Shown: one piece after another, positions 27,236 through 44,171 of the stretch
How positions within the stretch are numbered: the stretch's first letter is position 1
How the letters are laid out: every line of letters starts with the position of its first letter
From: a bacterium
GTDB taxonomy: Bacteria > Caldisericota > Caldisericia > Cryosericales > Cryosericaceae
Assembly: GCA_021373025.1 (NCBI GenBank)
Contig: JAJFTL010000038.1
Coordinates: 1-45,525, forward strand
Direction: 5' to 3'
DNA length: 45,525 nucleotides
Made by a program: the position numbers and the translations under genes
Notes under the pieces: generated by a model
Seen by the model: the letters and a program-made list of their open reading frames with translations, nothing else
What the model was told of the DNA's origin: nothing
Databases searched by the model: none

Positions 27236-27281
27236 CGTTACGGTAATGATTGTCGTCTCGTTACGGTAATGATTGTCGTCT
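27236..27281 (+). repeat. Exact tandem duplication of a 23-base unit
   Basis: Bases 27236-27258 and 27259-27281 are identical and adjacent. Each unit contains TTACGGTAA, a palindrome around G, and the first copy is part of a longer palindrome ACCGTTACGGT. It lies between the unknown protein and the cupin gene, about 110 bases before the cupin promoter. Confidence 0.9.
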
Positions 27282-32381: not shown

Positions 32382-32409
32382 TTGAATTACGCCCGACAAG
32401 CGATATAAT
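32382..32409 (+). promoter_or_regulatory. Promoter of the Cas6-type gene
   Basis: TTGAAT (32382-32387), a 16-base spacer and a perfect TATAAT (32404-32409) make this one of the strongest-looking promoters in the window. It implies a leader of about 105 bases before ATG 32522. I see no known leader element. Confidence 0.65.
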
Positions 32410-32521
32410 TACATGATCTACAGCAGGACATTCGAGCGAGTACCCCCAGTTGCGGGATGCGTCATGGCCAAAGTGGCTCACCTATCCGGTTGTCTGTTCT
32501 CTGAATTGAGTGGAGGTTGGT

Positions 32522-34159
32522 ATGCGTATCAGGATCGAAGTACAAAGTGCCCTCGGCAAGTTTATTCTGCCACAGGGGTACAACCCTTATGTTCAAGGGC
32601 TTGTCAATGCGTGTATTCCCGAAGACATCAAGTGGTCGGGCATTGCGACAGGTACGGAAGAAGCACACTTCAAGCTGTTCACGTTTTCTCAGCTTTATGC
32701 AAAGTCCGTAGAGCGTATCGACATTGCGCCGCACGAGAAGGACGGCGGAGACGCTCATGTTCACTATCAACTCGTGATGTCTTCACCCGTCTGGTTTTAT
32801 CTCTCGTCACCAAGCCCGGAGTTTGTTGAGGCGCTGATACCTCGGCTGGAACAAGCGCATGACCTTCACCTTGAACGGAACCTCGTGCAGTCGGTGCATG
32901 TCAGCGTCACTCATCCCGTTGCCACACCTGCCCAGGGACTAGTTACCTGGCGCGTTCGCACCATCAGCCCCATTACTGTCTACCAGAGCGAGAGCAAGGA
33001 CAGCAACTCCGCACACTATTTTGCGCCCAAGGACCCCTTGTTCTCCAAGATCGTTCTGGACAACGCAGTACGGAAGTATTACGCCTGGACGCAGGAAAAG
33101 GCACCCAGCGATGGATTCAGCATCAGCTGTCTTGACAAGACCCCGCATCTGGCTGTGATCTCATTTAAGGACACGCCCATACTGGGTTATACAGGACGCT
33201 TTCAGTTGACAGGAGATGCCAGACTGCTCTCATTTCTCTACGAATCGGGCCTGGGAGGCAAGAACTCGCATGGATTTGGGATGTTTGACATCGCACCGGA
33301 GGGCGAAGATGACGCTCATTGGCGTCGCCGGACAGAGGAAGAAAGTCGTGAGGTGCACAGCAGACCATCCGCATCGATGACTGCAGCCGATCAGGAACGA
33401 CCCGATCGCCGCGATGGTCCCCATCATGGCGGACGGGAAGAACCCCCTTCCTATAAAGAGCATGGGAACACCACCAGCGAGCACAATCCATCACGGAGCC
33501 CAGGATCTGGAGACGACCGCGTGCACACCAGTCATTCTCAGTCTAAGAGTGAACAATCAGGCCACCCACACGGGGACCGTTCCCCTTCTGGCCATCCGCA
33601 TACTGATCGGCCATATTCAGATCGCTCACGCACGAATCACCCCAATTCGCATACATCCAGAACTGAGGAGCCAAGACTTGATGGTACACGGTCGAGTGGT
33701 CGTGGCACGGGACACGCAGGGGCCGACAATCGCGCGTTCCAATCGACCTCGCGCGCAGGTGCCCCTGACCGCAGAGCTCCTCGCAGTAAAGAAGAGCCAC
33801 ATCGCAAATTCGTAAGCCGCTATGCTCCCGACATCAAGCCGGTGAGCCACGAGAAGGCTGCCACGGGTTCTTACAGCATCTGGGATGGCAAAACGAAAGT
33901 AGACCTACCACGCTTCGTGAGACCGGATGGGACCGAGAGTACAGGCGCTCCACGACCAAACCAACACCGCCCGGGATCCCGTTCGGGAGCATCTGAACGT
34001 TCCTCAACCAGAGATGCTCGTGCCCAGACAGGCAGGCGCGGTGAAAGTCTTGGAGCACCGAGACCCGGAGGAAGTTCCGGTTCCACATACCGCCCGAGTG
34101 GCGGCCATGGCGATCCGCGCAACCACGGAGGCAACAAGAGCGGTCCCTACAACCATTAG
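32522..34159 (+). CDS. Orphan Cas6-type CRISPR endoribonuclease domain with long low-complexity tail
   Basis: The product has 545 residues; ATG 32522 follows GGAGG five bases upstream. Residues 1-260 match Cas6. Blocks are LPQGYNPYVQGLV, HFKLFTFS (49-56), SSPSPEFVEALIPRLE, ISPITVY near 148, then DPLFSKIVLDNAVRKYY, and the glycine-rich loop GLGGKNSHGFGMF (243-255) that binds crRNA repeat. The lysine before LFTFS is kept (K51), but the usual catalytic His and Tyr positions of Pyrococcus Cas6 are not obvious. Residues 261-545 are hydrophilic, rich in H, R, S, G, P and D, and probably disordered. They include repeated GHPHxDR and a less biased island (428-470). No array or other cas gene is nearby. 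The role may be crRNA processing in trans or a repurposed RNA-binding function. Confidence 0.85.
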   Translation: MRIRIEVQSALGKFILPQGYNPYVQGLVNACIPEDIKWSGIATGTEEAHFKLFTFSQLYAKSVERIDIAPHEKDGGDAHVHYQLVMSSPVWFYLSSPSPEFVEALIPRLEQAHDLHLERNLVQSVHVSVTHPVATPAQGLVTWRVRTISPITVYQSESKDSNSAHYFAPKDPLFSKIVLDNAVRKYYAWTQEKAPSDGFSISCLDKTPHLAVISFKDTPILGYTGRFQLTGDARLLSFLYESGLGGKNSHGFGMFDIAPEGEDDAHWRRRTEEESREVHSRPSASMTAADQERPDRRDGPHHGGREEPPSYKEHGNTTSEHNPSRSPGSGDDRVHTSHSQSKSEQSGHPHGDRSPSGHPHTDRPYSDRSRTNHPNSHTSRTEEPRLDGTRSSGRGTGHAGADNRAFQSTSRAGAPDRRAPRSKEEPHRKFVSRYAPDIKPVSHEKAATGSYSIWDGKTKVDLPRFVRPDGTESTGAPRPNQHRPGSRSGASERSSTRDARAQTGRRGESLGAPRPGGSSGSTYRPSGGHGDPRNHGGNKSGPYNH

Positions 34160-34186
34160 CCACAGGCACGATCGGATTCGCTGGTA

Positions 34187-34204
34187 GGGCGCTGCTTAGC
34201 GCCT
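34187..34204 (+). terminator. Probable terminator after the Cas6-type gene
   Basis: GGCGCT (34188-34193) pairs with AGCGCC (34198-34203) around GCTT, with one more G-T pair outside. The following TTGCCCTTGC is only weakly T-rich, so termination may be inefficient. Confidence 0.4.
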
Positions 34205-34233
34205 TGCCCTTGCATGCCGTACCCCGCCATTTC

Positions 34234-34261
34234 TTGTTCGTAGTACGAATGAGGATATACT
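34234..34261 (+). promoter_or_regulatory. Promoter of the MATE gene pair
   Basis: TTGTTC (34234-34239), a 16-base spacer and TATACT (34256-34261) precede the pair. The leader of about 45 bases contains a small hairpin, AGCAGGA pairing with TCCTGCT, just before the ribosome site GGAGG and the GTG start at 34314. Confidence 0.5.
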
Positions 34262-34313: not shown

Positions 34314-35774
34314 GTGGCAAGAACCGCATCAAGAAAAGAGATACTGCAAGGTCCCATCGTCAGGACGATGTTCCGGCTAGCGTGGCCACTCATGATATCG
34401 AGCTTGCTCCACTACCTCTACAATATGGCGGATACGTTCTGGGTTGGCCATCTGCCGGTCGCGGAGAATGCCTCGTCGGTGGCTGGACTCCAGATTGCCG
34501 GTCCCGTTATCTTCTTCCTCATGGCCTTTGCCTTTGGATTCAATTCGGGAGGACTTGCGCTTGTGTCCCAGTACATGGGTGCTCATCGGAAAGAGGAAGC
34601 GAACACCGCTGCAGTAAAGACACTCTCCCTATCGATTGTTTTCGGGCTGCTCATCATGACAGCCGGTGTTATTTTGTCGCCTGCCCTGTTGAGGCTGCTC
34701 ACGTCTGACGTGGCAGTGGCTCGTGCCGGAACGGTCTACACGCGCATCATCTTCATCGGTATGCCCTTTGAGTTTGTGGCAGTGGCGTACGCTCAGGTCA
34801 TGGCAGCGTACGGTGATACGGTTACCCCCATGATGATAAATCTGGTGACTGTCCTGGCCAATGTCGTCCTGGACCCGTTCATGATCTTCGGCTGGGGACC
34901 GTTCGCCCGCATGACGATTGCTGGTGCTGCGTGGGCCACAGTCGCCTGTCAGGCTGTCGCCGCTGGAATCTCGCTGATCATCCTGTTCAGGGGAAGACAC
35001 GGTCTTCATGTCAACTGGCGAGACCTTTTGCCTGATTGGAGCTGGTACGCGCGCATCCTCAGGATTGGGCTTCCTGCCTCAATCGGTGCCTCGGGGACGT
35101 CCTTCGGGTTTCTGGTTCTCACGGGCATCATCGGCCGTGTCTCGAATGCAACAGTAGCACTCTCGGCCTATGGCATTGGCGATCGCTTCATCAACATCAG
35201 CTTCATCGCCATCGACGGTCTGTCTCTGGCCATTTCGACGATGGTCGGGCATGCTCTGGGTGCCGATCTCAGAAGACGCGCCAACCAGGTCGTCTGGACG
35301 GGCACGGCCATGATGTTCGGTATTCTCGTTGGTGAAGGGGCTCTTCTGTGGGTGCTCACACCATGGCTATTCAGAGCATTCATCCCGACACAGCCGGCGA
35401 TCATCAAGGAAGGTATCCTGTTCATGTCTCTGTTCCTGCCGTCCATTCCTTTCTTCGGTATCGTCAGTGGTGTTCAGGCGGCATTCCAGGGAGCCGGGCA
35501 CAACACGCCCTCCATGATCATGCAACTGGTGCGCCTGTGGGGTCTCCGTGTACCCCTCTCGTGGTTTTTCGGGTTTGCCCTTCACATGGGTTCGCGTGGT
35601 ATCTGGATTGGTATGCTGGTGAGCAACGTTCTTGCGGCGTTGCTTGCCCTGGTGTTCATGGCCACGATCGATTGGCACCACAAGGTTATCGGAAATACTT
35701 CCCTGAGTGAATATGGCGTCAGTGAGTCTGCAGAGACAGCTGTTGTGCCTGCTGAGCCCCAGGTGCAGGAGTAG
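34314..35774 (+). CDS. MATE family multidrug/Na+ (or H+) antiporter, copy 1
   Basis: This 486-residue membrane exporter has 12 predicted helices in two six-helix halves. The family start pattern is seen as EILQGPIVRTMFRLAWPLMIS, followed by YNMADTFWVGHL. The second half repeats as ILRIGLPASIGASG. The start is GTG at 34314 with GGAGGAAACA upstream; no ATG fits the family N-terminus. MATE proteins expel cationic drugs or metabolites using Na+ or H+ gradients; substrate and ion cannot be read from sequence. The second copy starts three bases after its stop, so they are one operon. Confidence 0.93.
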   Translation: MARTASRKEILQGPIVRTMFRLAWPLMISSLLHYLYNMADTFWVGHLPVAENASSVAGLQIAGPVIFFLMAFAFGFNSGGLALVSQYMGAHRKEEANTAAVKTLSLSIVFGLLIMTAGVILSPALLRLLTSDVAVARAGTVYTRIIFIGMPFEFVAVAYAQVMAAYGDTVTPMMINLVTVLANVVLDPFMIFGWGPFARMTIAGAAWATVACQAVAAGISLIILFRGRHGLHVNWRDLLPDWSWYARILRIGLPASIGASGTSFGFLVLTGIIGRVSNATVALSAYGIGDRFINISFIAIDGLSLAISTMVGHALGADLRRRANQVVWTGTAMMFGILVGEGALLWVLTPWLFRAFIPTQPAIIKEGILFMSLFLPSIPFFGIVSGVQAAFQGAGHNTPSMIMQLVRLWGLRVPLSWFFGFALHMGSRGIWIGMLVSNVLAALLALVFMATIDWHHKVIGNTSLSEYGVSESAETAVVPAEPQVQE

Positions 35775-35777
35775 AAG

Positions 35778-37247
35778 ATGAGCGGCTGGTCCCGAATGCC
35801 CACCCACGAGGAAATCCTCCGCGGCCCGGTAGTCACGACGATGTTCCGACTTTCATGGCCGGTGATGGTCAGTTCGCTGCTCAATATGGTGTACAACATG
35901 ACCGACACATTCTGGGTGGGGCACCTGCCTGCCAATGAAAACGCAGCGGCGGTTGCGGGACTCCAGGTTGCTGGGCCCGTGATGTGGTTTCTTATTGCGT
36001 TTGCATTTGGGTTTGGATCCTCGGGCCTCGCTCTCGTCTCGCAGTTCATGGGAGCGCACAATGAGGTCGATGCAGAGAAGGCAGCCGGTCAGACCATGGC
36101 TCTTGCCATCCTGCTGGGACTTGCTGTAGCGATCATCGGCGTCGTGCTGTCACCGGTTTTGCTTCCCATTCTGACGCCGGATCGCACCATCTCCGCAAAT
36201 GCCATCAGTTATACGCGCATCATCTTTTTCGGGATGCCCGCCATCTTTGTGTCGGCACTATATGCGCAGATCATGAATGCCTATGGAGATACGGTGACGC
36301 CGATGCTCATCAATGCAGTCACCGTCGGTCTGAATCTCATACTGGACCCGCTGATGATCTTCGGTTGGGGCCCGTTCGCTCGCATGAGTGTGGCCGGTGC
36401 TGCTCTCGCGACTGTCTTATGTCAGGTTCTGTCTGCCGGTATCTCGCTTTGGATCCTCGTAACCGGCAGGCGGAAGCTGAGAGTGACGCAGCGTGATCTG
36501 CGCCCTGAGGCTGCCTGGGTCAAACGTATTCTCCGCATTGGGCTTCCTGCCTCAATTGGGGCATCTGGTACGTCCTTCGGGTTCATTGTCCTGACCGGAA
36601 TAGTCGGGCGTGTTCCCAACGCCACCGTAGCACTCTCGGCATATGGCATCGGGGACAGGATGTTCAGCATCACCTCGCTCATCAACGACGGAGCAGGTGT
36701 AGGCATTGCCACCATGGTAGGCCAGGCACTGGGTGCCGGCCTGCGGGACCGAGCGGCAGCTGTCGTCCGGCAAGGAACGACTGCAATTGTCGGTCTCATG
36801 ACAGCTGCAAGCGTCTTTCTCTGGCTGATCACGCCTCTCGTATTCAGGGCATTCATTCCAAGTCACCCGGAGATCATCGCCGAAGGAATCAGTTTCATGT
36901 CGATCTTTTTGTGGGCCAACCCATTCTTCGGGCTGATGATGGGTGTCCAGTCGGCCTTTCAGGGATCGGGACACAATGTGCCCAACATGGTTCTTGATCT
37001 GGTTAGGCTATGGGGGCTGCGTGTGCCGCTGGCATGGTTCTTTGCCATCTCCTTAAAACTCGGCTCACGTGGTGTCTGGATCGGTATGACGGTCAGCAAC
37101 ATTGTGGCAGGCCTGCTTTCATTGGTACTTCTGTTTGCCGTAGACTGGCGCAAGAGCGTGGTGGGCCATCTGCCTCTGCCCGAGCCTCTGCTGATGGGAG
37201 AGGAGGCTGTGTCCTTTGTTGAGAACGTGGAGGCCGACAATCACTGA
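35778..37247 (+). CDS. MATE family multidrug/Na+ (or H+) antiporter, copy 2
   Basis: This 489-residue, 12-helix MATE protein is a paralog of the gene just before it. Shared blocks are YNMTDTFWVGHLP, SGLALVSQFMGAH, LRIGLPASIGASGTSFGF and VALSAYGIGDR. ATG 35778 follows GGAGTAGAAG within the end of the first copy. Both copies are full length with no decay, so both are under selection. They may have different substrates, or they may work together as a pair, which would be unusual for MATE proteins. An apparent promoter for the next operon lies 55 bases after the stop. Confidence 0.93.
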   Translation: MSGWSRMPTHEEILRGPVVTTMFRLSWPVMVSSLLNMVYNMTDTFWVGHLPANENAAAVAGLQVAGPVMWFLIAFAFGFGSSGLALVSQFMGAHNEVDAEKAAGQTMALAILLGLAVAIIGVVLSPVLLPILTPDRTISANAISYTRIIFFGMPAIFVSALYAQIMNAYGDTVTPMLINAVTVGLNLILDPLMIFGWGPFARMSVAGAALATVLCQVLSAGISLWILVTGRRKLRVTQRDLRPEAAWVKRILRIGLPASIGASGTSFGFIVLTGIVGRVPNATVALSAYGIGDRMFSITSLINDGAGVGIATMVGQALGAGLRDRAAAVVRQGTTAIVGLMTAASVFLWLITPLVFRAFIPSHPEIIAEGISFMSIFLWANPFFGLMMGVQSAFQGSGHNVPNMVLDLVRLWGLRVPLAWFFAISLKLGSRGVWIGMTVSNIVAGLLSLVLLFAVDWRKSVVGHLPLPEPLLMGEEAVSFVENVEADNH

Positions 37248-39951: not shown

Positions 39952-41274
39952 ATGAACATGCGAAAACGACTTCCAGCATTTGAATCGAAGGACTATCGAC
40001 TGTGGTTCGCCGGACAGAGTGTCTCTCTCATCGGGACATGGCTGCAGAATACGGGTCAGTCATGGCTTGTGCTGAAACTGACAGCTTCGCCCTTGAAGCT
40101 AGGGATACTGACGAGTATCCAGTTTCTGCCTTCGCTTTTTCTTTCACTGTTCATCGGCCCGATCATTGATCGTTTCCCCAAGCGCTCGATCCTGCTGTTT
40201 ACCCAGACCATGTTTGCCCTGTCCGCTGCTGTACTGGCTGTCGTGGCTTTTGGAGGTCACGCGCAGTACTGGCAGGTGCTCGTCATTGCTGCTTTCACAG
40301 GGTTGATTACGGCTGTCGACTCGCCGACAAGGCAGGCTTTTGTCAGCGAGCAGGTGCACGACAAGTCCGCTGTCGCCAATGCACTGGCGCTGAACAGCAC
40401 GATGTTCAATATGGCTCGCGTTATCGGCCCCGGCATCGCGGGCGTCCTGATTGCTATCGTCGGCATTCCGTGGACGTTCGCATTGAACTCGGTGAGTTTT
40501 ATTGCTGTCATTATCAGTCTCCTTGTCATGCAAGCAGGAAGGCATCCGGCAAAGAGCGAGATGGAAGACTACCTTGAAGATGTACGTGAAGGAATTCAGT
40601 ACATCAGGCGGAACCAGGTCATCACCAGTCTCCTTGTGATTGTCGGCGTGATCAGCCTGTTCTTGCTCAACTTCAACATCCTCATTCCCAGTTTTGCCCA
40701 GTTGACCTTGGGATTGAAGGCCGACGGATATGGAGGGCTGATGTCAGCCATGGGAGTGGGTGCTCTGGCCGCTGGCGTGCTGATGTCTCTCGGGGGATCG
40801 CGTCTGGAACCTACCCCGGCATATATCTATGGGTCGGGGTTCATTCTGTCCCTTGCGATGGTTCTTGTCGGCATGCAGCATAATTTCTATGTGACCGGGA
40901 TACTGCTCGTCTTCTGCGGATTTGGTATGGCGGCATTGTCGACAATGTGCAACACTGCACTGCAGATGCAATCGCCCGATCACATGCGCGGTCGGGTCAT
41001 GGCTGCCTACAATCTGGTGTTTGTCGGTTCAACGCCGATTGGAGCGCTGTATGCAGGCAAGATTTCGGATGCACTGGGGGCAAACATGGGATTTCTCGTG
41101 AGTGGACTGATCGGACTCGTGTTCCTCGCGACCATGCTGTTCCTGGTGACACCGCGTGCCTTCAAAGGGGTGCGGACATTCGCCGTACCGCACTCCCCGG
41201 TGCGGGGTGATGGTCAGGTCGCAGGTGACTGCGTCGTCGAGGTCGATGCTTCGACGAGGGTATCCAGCGACTGA
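39952..41274 (+). CDS. MFS exporter (EntS/MFS_3-like)
   Basis: This 440-residue, 12-helix transporter has the N-terminal pattern FESKDYRLWFAGQSVSLIGTW, then the A-motif-like GPIIDRFPKR after helix 2. It also has DSPTRQAFVSEQV and ARVIGPGIAGVLI, which are typical of the EntS-like branch that exports siderophores, drugs or metabolites. ATG 39952 follows GAAGGACAGATCCAAC. A TAAAAT box at 39905-39910 may be its -10. The final 61 bases overlap the 3' end of the convergent hybrid kinase gene, and its C-terminal tail after about residue 405 is hydrophilic. The substrate is unknown. Confidence 0.9.
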   Translation: MNMRKRLPAFESKDYRLWFAGQSVSLIGTWLQNTGQSWLVLKLTASPLKLGILTSIQFLPSLFLSLFIGPIIDRFPKRSILLFTQTMFALSAAVLAVVAFGGHAQYWQVLVIAAFTGLITAVDSPTRQAFVSEQVHDKSAVANALALNSTMFNMARVIGPGIAGVLIAIVGIPWTFALNSVSFIAVIISLLVMQAGRHPAKSEMEDYLEDVREGIQYIRRNQVITSLLVIVGVISLFLLNFNILIPSFAQLTLGLKADGYGGLMSAMGVGALAAGVLMSLGGSRLEPTPAYIYGSGFILSLAMVLVGMQHNFYVTGILLVFCGFGMAALSTMCNTALQMQSPDHMRGRVMAAYNLVFVGSTPIGALYAGKISDALGANMGFLVSGLIGLVFLATMLFLVTPRAFKGVRTFAVPHSPVRGDGQVAGDCVVEVDASTRVSSD

Positions 41275-44171
41275 CGTACGCGGGAAGCCAGCTCCTGCAG
41301 TGTGTATGGCTTCGGAATAAACGCCACGAAGCCCATACTCTCGAAGGGAGTATCGGTGGCATCGTATCCAGACATCAGGATAGCCGCCACTGACGGGTTG
41401 ATTGTATGGAGCTGCTCCAAGAGCTCTTTGCCGTTCATATGGGGCATCATCATGTCAACAAGGACCAAGTCAATCGAATGCCATGACTCCTTGTAGATGG
41501 CAATTGCGTTCAGGGGATTTCCAGTGTCGATAACATGATATCCCAGACCAGAAAGCACTTTGACAGCTACGCTTCGCACCACATCTTCGTCATCGACGAT
41601 AAGAACGGTTTCTTCACCAGAAGACCGCGGGAGTGACCCTGAGACAGATGTCTGGGGGACTCTTTTCATTGCTTCAGCGCGGGAAGTGGCAGGAAGATAT
41701 ACTGTGAAGCTTGTTCCCTTGCTCGGCTCTGATGCCACAGCAATGGTTCCCTTGTGGTCATGGACAACACGCCAGACGATAGACAGGCCGAGCCCTGTGC
41801 CCTCCGGCTTGGTTGTGAAGAACGGTTCGAACAGATGGTCCATAGCTTCGGGTGTCAAGCCGCATCCAGTGTCTGTCACGGTGATCTGTACGTAGCTACC
41901 ATCAGGCAGAACGGGAATGGCATGGCTTGCGTAGAAGGATTCATCGATGCTCACGTTACAAGCATTGACGGTCAGTGTTCCACCCCTGGGCTTCACAGCG
42001 TCGCGCGCATTGATGATGATATTGAGGAAGACCTCTTCGAGCTGCGTTCGATCGCCGAGGACATAGTCCAGATCCGGAGCAATGTTCTGCACCACAACAG
42101 TATGTTGGTCAAAACCCGGCATGGCAAGCGCAAGTGCATCCCTCAGGACGCCAGCGACGTCAACATCTGTCGTGGTTGAACCCCCTTTGCGCGAGAAGGA
42201 GAGCAGGCGTTGTGTCAGCCTAGCCGCGCGTCTCGCCGCAAACTCAATAGTGTTCAGTCCTTCATAGAGTTCAGTTCCTTCTGGTGCGTCAACCCTCAGC
42301 AGAGAAGCATATCCGATGATGCCGCCTATGATATTGTTGAAGTCATGGGCGATTCCTCCCGCGAGCCTGCCGACCGCTTCCATCTTCTGGGATTGCAGCA
42401 ACTCTCGTTCGAGCTGTTGAGATCGTTCCTCCATGAGTCGACGTTCTGTAACGTCGTGGAAAATACCTTGGAGCACGGCTGGCCCCGCAGAGGGGAGGGA
42501 CTGCAGGGAGGCTTCGCAGATGACCTGATGGCCATCCTTCCCGACAAGCACCCAGTCGAATCGTTGGACATTGCCGGCAAGGGCACGGTCTTCCATATCC
42601 TGCATGGCCTGAGCAGAAGACCGGCCGTCTGGCTGCAAGGCAGGACTGATACTGGCGATCGTTCTTCCTATCAATTCTTCTAATGTCATGCCGAGCGTGC
42701 GTGTGGCAGCATGGTTGATCTGAACGATGAGGTGGTTGCTGATGATAAAGGTTGGATCCGGAGCTTCGTCGAACAGCGAATGGTATTGTTCGTATGCTGC
42801 TCGGATGGTCTGCTGAGCCTTGAGTTGTTCTCGCAGGTCGCGTGCAATGATCAGTACCTGCTTTTTTGGGGTTTGCAGGGTGGACGTCGTGAGTTCGACG
42901 GGAATCAGGGTCCCGTCAGACGTAACGAATTGCCACCCTGGTGAAGCAGTCCTCACGTCTTCCAGACAACGAAGGGTCTTCGGCGTGGTGTCTTTTCCGG
43001 AAATCATGAAGGATTCCACCGCAACACCGATCAAATCGGACTCTTGCCGGCCAAGCAGCGTGCAGAGGGCTCCATTGACAGCCTCAACTTCCAGGCTTCC
43101 GCCTGCGTCGCTGACAAGCAATGCTGGTTCTGGGACAGCCGCGAACAGCTGCTGATAGTGGGCAGCCCGCTCACGGGCCTCACGGGCTGCACGCTCACGG
43201 GAAACGAGCAGGTAGGCAGCCACCAGCAGAATCGCGGCGGCAGCCACCATGGGCACTACCGTTCTCAGCCAGTTCCTGCTGGTGTAGAAGGAAATGGTGG
43301 AGCCAAACCATTTTGTCTCAAGCTGTGCCAGCATGCCATTGCTCCGCAACTCTGCCAGAGTCGCATTGAACTGTGGCAGCAGCGGAAGTATCTTTCGCGC
43401 CGCAACATACGCTACCGGCTGGCGACCAGCAAGAAATGGCTTCAAGAAACTGCCCTTTTGGAGGACAAGAGTTCCCAGATAGTGTTCATTGACCAAGTAC
43501 TGCGCATTGATGTAGTCGTGCACCGCAGCATCGGCGCGACCACTGGCGACTGCCGCGATTACTTCGTCGGCCGACACATAGCGCTGGACATCGATCTGGC
43601 CGTATCGAGTGTCCAGACCTACGACGAAATCGTCGGATGCTGTCCCTGCCTTGACGGCGACGCGATGACTACCGAGGTCGCGCGGCGAATGAAGCGTGCT
43701 ATCGGCAGGCGTGATAAGGACCAAGCCGGAGTCCATGTAAGCATCCGTAAAAGCAAAGTGGGAGGCGCGGTCACTTGTCTTGAAGATCGATCCGATCCCC
43801 AGGTCGATAGACTCGTTGCGTATGCCCGCCAGTTCGTCCGAAAACGTCATCGTTTCATAGTGGACATTCCAGCCGTTGAGCGAGGCAATAAGGTTAACGA
43901 GATCGACATCAAATCCAACCAGCTGACCGTCTTGCACAAAAGCAAATGGTTTGTAGATGTTCGCAGCGACAATGATTTCCGGGCCTGGGGACGGAGCCGG
44001 CGCAGCACGAACCGGGGCTGTCGGCAGGATGGTAAACAGCCCCATCAGCAGAGCGACGCAAAGGAGGGCTCGTGCCCCAGCTTCCAACTTTCTTGAATGC
44101 CATGGAGCGTGAAACAGAGGGCAAGCTGTGCCTTGTACGATCTCTCTCCCTTCAGTACCGTTTCTCAACAT
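41214..44171 (-). CDS. Hybrid histidine kinase with periplasmic solute-binding sensor
   Basis: This 985-residue protein has a BvgS-like plan. A signal or membrane segment (about 33-55) is followed by a type 3 solute-binding domain (64-290, EIIVAANIYKPFAFVQDGQL) and a membrane helix (303-323). Two PAS domains follow (338-450 and 460-575), then HisKA with His609 in GGIAHDFNNIIGG, and an ATPase domain with DTGCGL and FFTTKPEGTGLGLS. The C-terminal receiver (about 862-985) has the acceptor Asp in LVLVDMMMP. The start ATG 44171 lies eight bases after TATACT, so the message may be leaderless. The sensor probably binds an amino acid or similar small solute. No output regulator is adjacent. Confidence 0.92.
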   Translation of the reverse strand: MLRNGTEGREIVQGTACPLFHAPWHSRKLEAGARALLCVALLMGLFTILPTAPVRAAPAPSPGPEIIVAANIYKPFAFVQDGQLVGFDVDLVNLIASLNGWNVHYETMTFSDELAGIRNESIDLGIGSIFKTSDRASHFAFTDAYMDSGLVLITPADSTLHSPRDLGSHRVAVKAGTASDDFVVGLDTRYGQIDVQRYVSADEVIAAVASGRADAAVHDYINAQYLVNEHYLGTLVLQKGSFLKPFLAGRQPVAYVAARKILPLLPQFNATLAELRSNGMLAQLETKWFGSTISFYTSRNWLRTVVPMVAAAAILLVAAYLLVSRERAAREARERAAHYQQLFAAVPEPALLVSDAGGSLEVEAVNGALCTLLGRQESDLIGVAVESFMISGKDTTPKTLRCLEDVRTASPGWQFVTSDGTLIPVELTTSTLQTPKKQVLIIARDLREQLKAQQTIRAAYEQYHSLFDEAPDPTFIISNHLIVQINHAATRTLGMTLEELIGRTIASISPALQPDGRSSAQAMQDMEDRALAGNVQRFDWVLVGKDGHQVICEASLQSLPSAGPAVLQGIFHDVTERRLMEERSQQLERELLQSQKMEAVGRLAGGIAHDFNNIIGGIIGYASLLRVDAPEGTELYEGLNTIEFAARRAARLTQRLLSFSRKGGSTTTDVDVAGVLRDALALAMPGFDQHTVVVQNIAPDLDYVLGDRTQLEEVFLNIIINARDAVKPRGGTLTVNACNVSIDESFYASHAIPVLPDGSYVQITVTDTGCGLTPEAMDHLFEPFFTTKPEGTGLGLSIVWRVVHDHKGTIAVASEPSKGTSFTVYLPATSRAEAMKRVPQTSVSGSLPRSSGEETVLIVDDEDVVRSVAVKVLSGLGYHVIDTGNPLNAIAIYKESWHSIDLVLVDMMMPHMNGKELLEQLHTINPSVAAILMSGYDATDTPFESMGFVAFIPKPYTLQELASRVRQSLDTLVEASTSTTQSPAT

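Follow-up and report, generated by a model that had tools for sequence, protein, structure and literature searches.

A Cas6 protein with a long disordered tail is a core gene of Candidatus Cryosericum, a genus largely without detectable CRISPR-Cas

The locus and its predicted transcript

The stretch of DNA analysed here (hereafter 'the window', 45,525 nucleotides) belongs to a Candidatus Cryosericum bacterium whose genome measures 1.6 Mb and is 97.9% complete. Nine relatives match the window from end to end at 73-79% identity, and all of them are Cryosericum or Caldiserica bacteria. The forward strand carries a cas6-like open reading frame (ORF) of 545 codons, which extends from an ATG codon at 32522 to a stop codon at 34157-34159. 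These boundaries (32522-34159) agree with those in a preliminary description that had been made from the sequence alone. The program-made ORF begins at a GTG codon four codons further 5ʹ; however, the ATG codon is preferred because the amino acid sequence MRIRIEV at this start and the ribosome-binding site GTGGAGGT are invariant or nearly invariant in the alignment of relatives.

The neighbouring genes follow a fixed order, in which genes for PEPCK and Nramp proteins (divergently oriented) are succeeded by those for Cas6, MatE, MatE, MgtE, Nramp and MFS proteins. This order is identical in every contig long enough for checking, including that of the divergent lineage G027. The two tandem MatE transporter genes (34314-37247) have a 214-nt stretch in common at 73% identity, and the pair is kept across the genus. 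Elsewhere in the window, a frame at 41214-44171 encodes a hybrid sensor kinase of 985 residues, in which a solute-binding domain (SBP_bac_3) is combined with PAS domains and a receiver. This frame and the end of the convergent MFS gene have 61 bases in common. At 27236-27281, the 23-bp sequence CGTTACGGTAATGATTGTCGTCT is perfectly duplicated in tandem.

A candidate promoter for the cas6-like gene (32382-32409, forward strand), recognized by its match to the consensus, consists of TTGAAT (32382-32387), a 16-nt spacer and TATAAT (32404-32409). A TATAAT-like −10 element is found at the equivalent place in ten other aligned upstream regions. The ORF is preceded by a conserved untranslated leader of about 110 nt (32412-32521, forward strand), which was delineated by alignment and carries a hairpin (about 32443-32460) and the element GGCCAAAGTGGC. 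A covariance model finds this leader once per genome in 13 of the 15 Cryosericum genomes surveyed, always ahead of the tailed Cas6 gene. The inner hairpin is kept with altered letters in G027 and in a further genome, G029; the outer helix is, by eye, poorly kept in G029, and our claim is therefore limited to the inner hairpin. The overall fold of the leader is weak, as two-sided changes are seen at three pairs, all of them within one lineage, and single sequences fold no better than shuffled ones (z-scores of −0.03 to 2.0). The leader was dropped as a candidate for a well-folded, riboswitch-like RNA on the strength of these z-scores and the few two-sided pair changes. A search of Rfam produced no match within the window.

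The hairpin GGTAGGGCGCTgcttAGCGCCTTGCC (34183-34208, forward strand), read from the sequence 3ʹ of the stop codon, is a likely terminator, and GC-rich hairpins with different sequences occupy the equivalent place in close relatives and in genome G035. The gene is thus probably expressed as a single-gene transcript. Further downstream, the MatE promoter contains a perfect palindrome, TTCGTAGTACGAA (34237-34249), which is the sole copy in the window and resides within a stretch that is invariant among all aligned relatives, G027 included. Its sequence looks like the operator of a regulator.

The head is a Cas6 protein by descent and fold

The N-terminal head (residues 1-257; 32522-33292, forward strand) scores above the cut-off with two protein family profiles, reaching 95.7 bits for TIGR01877 cas6 (cut-off 58.65) and 94.9 bits for Pfam Cas_Cas6_C (PF01881; E 8e-27, cut-off 23). 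The PADLOC Cas6b profile aligns across the entire head with an E value of 1e-46, and solved Cas6 proteins are matched at the sequence level by phmmer. An AlphaFold model of the head has pLDDT values mostly between 75 and 94, and the best PDB matches that Foldseek returns for this model are all Cas6 proteins (5yi6 with E 4e-15, 3qjj, 3ufc and 3i4h), with TM-scores to the target of 0.70-0.76 for the nine best. The head adopts the tandem ferredoxin-like fold typical of Cas6, with the glycine-rich loop GLGGKNSHGFGMF near its C-terminal end. The preliminary description had assigned the N-terminal part to Cas6 on the basis of this loop and of the block HFKLFTFS, which we place at residues about 243-255 and 49-56, respectively. 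Three profile libraries and the structural comparison agree with that assignment far beyond chance, and both ancestry and fold identify the protein as a Cas6.

Two of these structural matches, 3qjj (PH0350) and 3ufc, are Cas6-related Pyrococcus proteins described as RNA-binding, non-catalytic Cas6 paralogs without the catalytic histidine.

Two of three catalytic residues are replaced

The active site was evaluated in an alignment of 11 tailed proteins and 11 ordinary Cas6 proteins, in which PfCas6 numbering was transferred via the phmmer alignment (chain offset 5). At the position of PfCas6 Tyr31, all 11 tailed proteins carry Asn29, whereas all 11 ordinary Cas6 proteins of the class carry tyrosine. 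The position of His46 is occupied by Ile41 in the tailed proteins (aspartate in G027), and by histidine (9 of 11) or tyrosine (2 of 11) in ordinary Cas6 proteins. Lys51, which corresponds to Lys52, does not vary among the 22 sequences. The Tyr-His-Lys triad of the PfCas6 type is therefore reduced to the lysine alone in every tailed protein. The neighbouring His49 is invariant among the tailed proteins, and judging from this conservation it could be a new catalytic residue. A replacement of the catalytic histidine by tyrosine (LYLEGF for LHxEGF) is seen in ordinary Cas6 proteins from one genus of the same class (L033 and L035, in genomes G012 and G009).

Mutational data from PfuCas6 indicate what such replacements can mean, since the Y31A and H46A variants have no detectable activity and the K52A variant is 40-fold less active (PMC3652601). 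However, the triad is not common to all active Cas6 proteins, and SsoCas6, which has neither the tyrosine nor the histidine, still cleaves through basic residues (PMC3652601). The tailed Cas6 has thus lost the canonical mechanism, which need not mean that it no longer cleaves at all.

A disordered tail carries a sharply conserved island

Beyond the head, the protein continues for 288 residues, which we divide into a first disordered part (residues 258-423; 33293-33790) that is basic and rich in Ser, Arg, Gly, Pro and His, an island of conserved sequence (residues 424-480; 33791-33961), EEPHRKFVSRYAPDIKPVSHEKAATGSYSIWDGKTKVDLPRFVRPDGTESTGAPRPN, and a last disordered part (residues 481-545 and the stop codon; 33962-34159), all on the forward strand. 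The composition of the tail is 14% Ser, 13.5% Arg, 12% Gly, 10% Pro and 7% His, and pLDDT values in the AlphaFold model are below 50 over residues 277-545, isolated residues excepted. Its earlier portrayal as a low-complexity segment thus holds for composition, but not for uniformity, because residues 424-480 are sharply conserved. A frameshift or an assembly error, which the preliminary description had named as a possible source of the tail, is ruled out, as ten other genomes have an open frame throughout the tail and purifying selection acts on it in frame. An eleventh other tailed copy is interrupted solely by a run of 26 N.

Outside the island, the tail varies between species in both length and sequence. 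Ahead of the island it contains repeats of the SDRPxTDRP type, and the number of these repeats differs between species, as would be expected for a linker. The island behaves differently. Among nine close relatives, whose dS of about 0.44 is not saturated, the head has a dN/dS of 0.068, the tail on both sides of the island one of 0.174 and the island itself one of 0.022. The island is therefore under tighter constraint than the Cas6 head. The ranges are 0.04-0.08 (head), 0.02-0.04 (island) and, among closer relatives, about 0.15-0.17 (rest of the tail). In comparison with G027, where dS is partly saturated, the island retains a value near 0.04 and the remaining tail can barely be aligned. Invariant residues occupy 44 of the 58 alignment columns of the island even when G027 is included. 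Synonymous sites in the island vary as freely as elsewhere, which indicates that the constraint acts on the protein.

The island is present in 14 of the 15 Cryosericum genomes, each time in the tailed Cas6; in G035 it reads PDIKPVSKERASTGSYSIWDGKPKAEMPRFVRPDGTESTG and the remaining tail differs. Among the 54 genomes of the phylum that were searched, no second copy was found elsewhere and the only matches were at chance level. The possibility that the island is a fragment of a known domain was rejected, as it has no match in Pfam, PHROG or the PDB, where the best alignment (RBM10, E 0.24) is not significant. Because the AlphaFold model gives the island no confident fold, the simplest reading of that model is a docking segment that would fold upon binding. 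Its conservation points to specific docking in addition to general low-complexity behaviour.

The tailed Cas6 is a genus-wide core gene

Our survey covered 54 genomes of the phylum, 15 of them from Cryosericum; all relatives with the tailed protein are from this one genus, and many of the genomes are drafts or metagenome assemblies. The tailed Cas6 is confined to Cryosericum, where 12 of the 15 genomes have the head. Contig ends truncate the locus in the remaining three, such that G025 and G035 retain the tail with its island at a contig edge and G029 retains the leader and the first codons only; some part of the locus is thus present in all 15 genomes. The search for homologs with the same tail that had been suggested earlier therefore leads to a single genus-wide family with a common gene order. 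Between the window and close relatives, head identity is 88-91%, which compares with 88-91% for PEPCK and 85-91% for the Nramp neighbour. The tailed Cas6 is a core gene of the genus that evolves as slowly as its core neighbours.

In a tree that covers the phylum, the tailed proteins form one clade (support 100/99) with a stem of 1.64 and slow change afterwards. The sister of this clade is the ordinary type I-B Cas6 of the Cryosericum genome G036, which is the nearest relative in the data at 39% identity, although this placement involves long branches. A long stem followed by strict constraint resembles a change of function, with the reservation that long branches meet at this point. In the rest of the class, ordinary Cas6 proteins have about 247-322 residues, and many of the genomes that encode them also have Cas1. 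With respect to a phage origin, the tailed Cas6 has no relative in viral contigs and no match in a viral structure library.

CRISPR-Cas systems were detected in few Cryosericum genomes

Detectable CRISPR-Cas systems occur in two of the 15 genomes, with type I-B and type III in G036 and a type I-G-like system in G026. Cas1 and RAMP proteins were not found in 14 of the 15 genomes, DevR/Cas7 was not found in any of the 15, and Cas3 exceeds the cut-off in G026 and G036 only. Arrays were sought by two patterns, ATTGAAAC and TGAAA, and a search of this kind, which covers arrays with these repeat ends, recovered arrays in the same two genomes only. The genome of the window has no match to Cas1, RAMP or DevR proteins, a Cas3 match only below the cut-off and no TGAAA-type array, so that neither a linked nor a co-resident array with cas genes was found for its tailed Cas6. 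Many relatives are represented by draft or metagenome-assembled genomes, and cas genes or arrays may therefore have been missed in the less complete ones.

The two systems that were found differ in architecture. The G036 loci on contigs C44 (L056), C19 (L060) and C40 (L061) include a type I-B locus, whose long array has >40 repeats, as well as further arrays. The I-B locus has its own Cas6 of 263 residues, which keeps LHDKGW and IYTS and hence has the tyrosine and histidine intact. The further arrays of G036, with the repeat GTCTGCAGGTGTAGGTGACCCTTCGGGGTATTGAAAC, are close to RAMP genes and to an 866-residue frame that includes a Cas1 domain and is perhaps a reverse transcriptase-Cas1 fusion. 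In G026, which is Candidatus Cryosericum septentrionale, a locus on contig C45 (L073, 7900-16142) resembles type I-G (I-U) by eye, in that an array with TTCAATTGGGCCGCGGTCTTTCAACCGCGGAAAC-type repeats is followed by Csb2-like, Csb1-like, Csx17-like and Cas3 frames. Cas1 was not found in the G026 genome. The Csb2 protein of type I-G systems is a fusion of Cas5 and Cas6.

A domesticated Cas6 as the favoured explanation

Judged by its genomic context, the tailed Cas6 is not a CRISPR-associated endoribonuclease, and its active site, as aligned, is not the classical one. The occurrence of a core gene in a genus mostly without cas genes or arrays, together with the replacement of two of three catalytic residues, suggests that the tailed Cas6 now handles ordinary cellular RNA. 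This supports the earlier proposal that a Cas6 has been recruited for another RNA task. We favour, with a probability of about 0.6, the explanation that a type I-B Cas6 was domesticated as an RNA-binding protein whose tail serves as a linker and docking motif. Early in the history of Cryosericum, a relative of type I-B Cas6 proteins would have left its CRISPR context and turned into a core, single-gene cellular function. The head, which keeps the fold, the glycine-rich loop and Lys51, would still bind RNA, acting mainly as a sequence- or hairpin-specific RNA-binding or chaperone module with slow or no cleavage, rather than as a canonical pre-crRNA nuclease. The tail, basic and of low complexity, would serve as a flexible linker and contribute weak RNA affinity, and the island is predicted to dock one conserved partner protein, such that a particular RNA or RNA class would be delivered to this partner. 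The hairpin-bearing leader may be among the RNA targets of the protein, which would permit autoregulation. A bolder and distinctly tentative extension is that the tailed Cas6 might be the RNA-binding hub of a ribonucleoprotein system that is specific to this lineage and separate from CRISPR. It might recognize its leader along with further hairpin RNAs of the cell while the island recruits a conserved partner, and so might constitute a post-transcriptional regulator built from a CRISPR part.

Known systems provide partial parallels to this domesticated Cas6. Like the type I-B/III Cas6 proteins (TIGR01877, PF01881), it has the fold, the glycine-rich loop, the FKLFTFS block and the catalytic lysine, but it differs from them in having no linked CRISPR locus, in the replacement of tyrosine and histidine, and in its 288-residue tail with an island. 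The Pyrococcus proteins 3qjj and 3ufc (PH0350/PF0393 type) share the Cas6 fold, and the tailed Cas6 resembles them in being without the catalytic histidine. However, these proteins have no long tail and are not core genes of a genus largely without CRISPR; their hosts are rich in CRISPR-Cas. A precedent for a Cas6 paralog that acts on non-CRISPR RNA is SsoCas6-3 (Sso1422), which cuts ncRNA60 (PMC4041471), although this enzyme is also active on CRISPR repeats and its host genome has several CRISPR systems.

The same precedent bears on a possible but less probable explanation, in which the protein has remained an endoribonuclease. Its active site would have been rebuilt from Lys51, perhaps together with His49 and further basic residues, and its substrates would be one or a few hairpin RNAs of the cell, with its own leader perhaps among them. 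The invariance of Lys51 throughout the alignment and of His49 among the tailed proteins, the activity of SsoCas6 without tyrosine and histidine (PMC3652601) and the cleavage of a non-CRISPR RNA by SsoCas6-3 (PMC4041471) are all consistent with such an enzyme. Two of the three PfCas6 catalytic residues are nevertheless replaced in all 11 sequences. The presence of 3qjj and 3ufc, which are described as non-catalytic, among the best structural matches likewise counts against such an enzyme.

Less can be said for a scaffold of an RNA-decay or RNA-storage assembly, comparable to the disordered half of RNase E, and we regard this as improbable. RNase E/G was not found in any of the 15 genomes and RNase Y exceeds the cut-off in 12, which leaves room for a scaffold of this kind without demonstrating one, but RNase Y alone suffices for many bacteria. 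The likeness to the C-terminal region of RNase E and to bacterial ribonucleoprotein bodies is one of analogy only, and consists of an enzyme-like or RNA-binding-type head joined to a long disordered tail with short docking-type segments. As described in two reports, an RNase E tail of this sort builds RNA-decay condensates (PMC10412687, PMC12691583). RNase E is, however, unrelated to the tailed protein in sequence and fold, as the head of the latter is that of Cas6 and not the RNase E catalytic domain.

We give equally little credence to a role as a helper crRNA processor that stands by for CRISPR systems gained and lost within the genus and whose tail concentrates pre-crRNA. Cas6 can act in trans for several effectors (PMC4041471), and CRISPR-Cas does occur in two of the 15 genomes. 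However, the pattern search found no arrays in 13 of the 15 genomes, and the degenerate active site and a purifying selection as strong as that on core metabolism also count against this role. Moreover, one of the two systems supplies its own Cas6, with tyrosine and histidine intact, and the other is, by eye, of the I-G-like type in which Csb2 already incorporates a Cas6. The suggestion made in the preliminary description, that the protein concentrates crRNA precursors made elsewhere, is disfavoured by this Cas6 of the G036 I-B locus and by the failure to find an array in the genome of the window.

That the protein is a remnant of CRISPR in decay, with a tail of no significance, is scarcely credible despite the variable length and sequence of the tail outside the island. 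The selection test refutes this reading, with dN/dS values of 0.04-0.08 in the head and 0.02-0.04 in the island, and of <0.2 over most of the tail when closer relatives are compared. In addition, every uninterrupted copy is open, and the gene's own promoter, leader and terminator are conserved.

To our knowledge, the repurposing of single cas genes for housekeeping has often been proposed and rarely shown. A review of CRISPR evolution lists the exaptation of whole minimal systems (PMC6452270). In the open-licence papers searched, we found no description of a lone Cas6 that has become fixed in a genus, nor of any Cas6 bearing a tail of this kind. In Cryosericum, a Cas6 is fixed throughout a genus that is largely without CRISPR, its active site is changed, it has what appears to be a new conserved docking-type segment, and it is constrained like core enzymes. 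The domestication of this protein would illustrate a path from an immune RNA-recognition module to a cellular RNA-binding protein.
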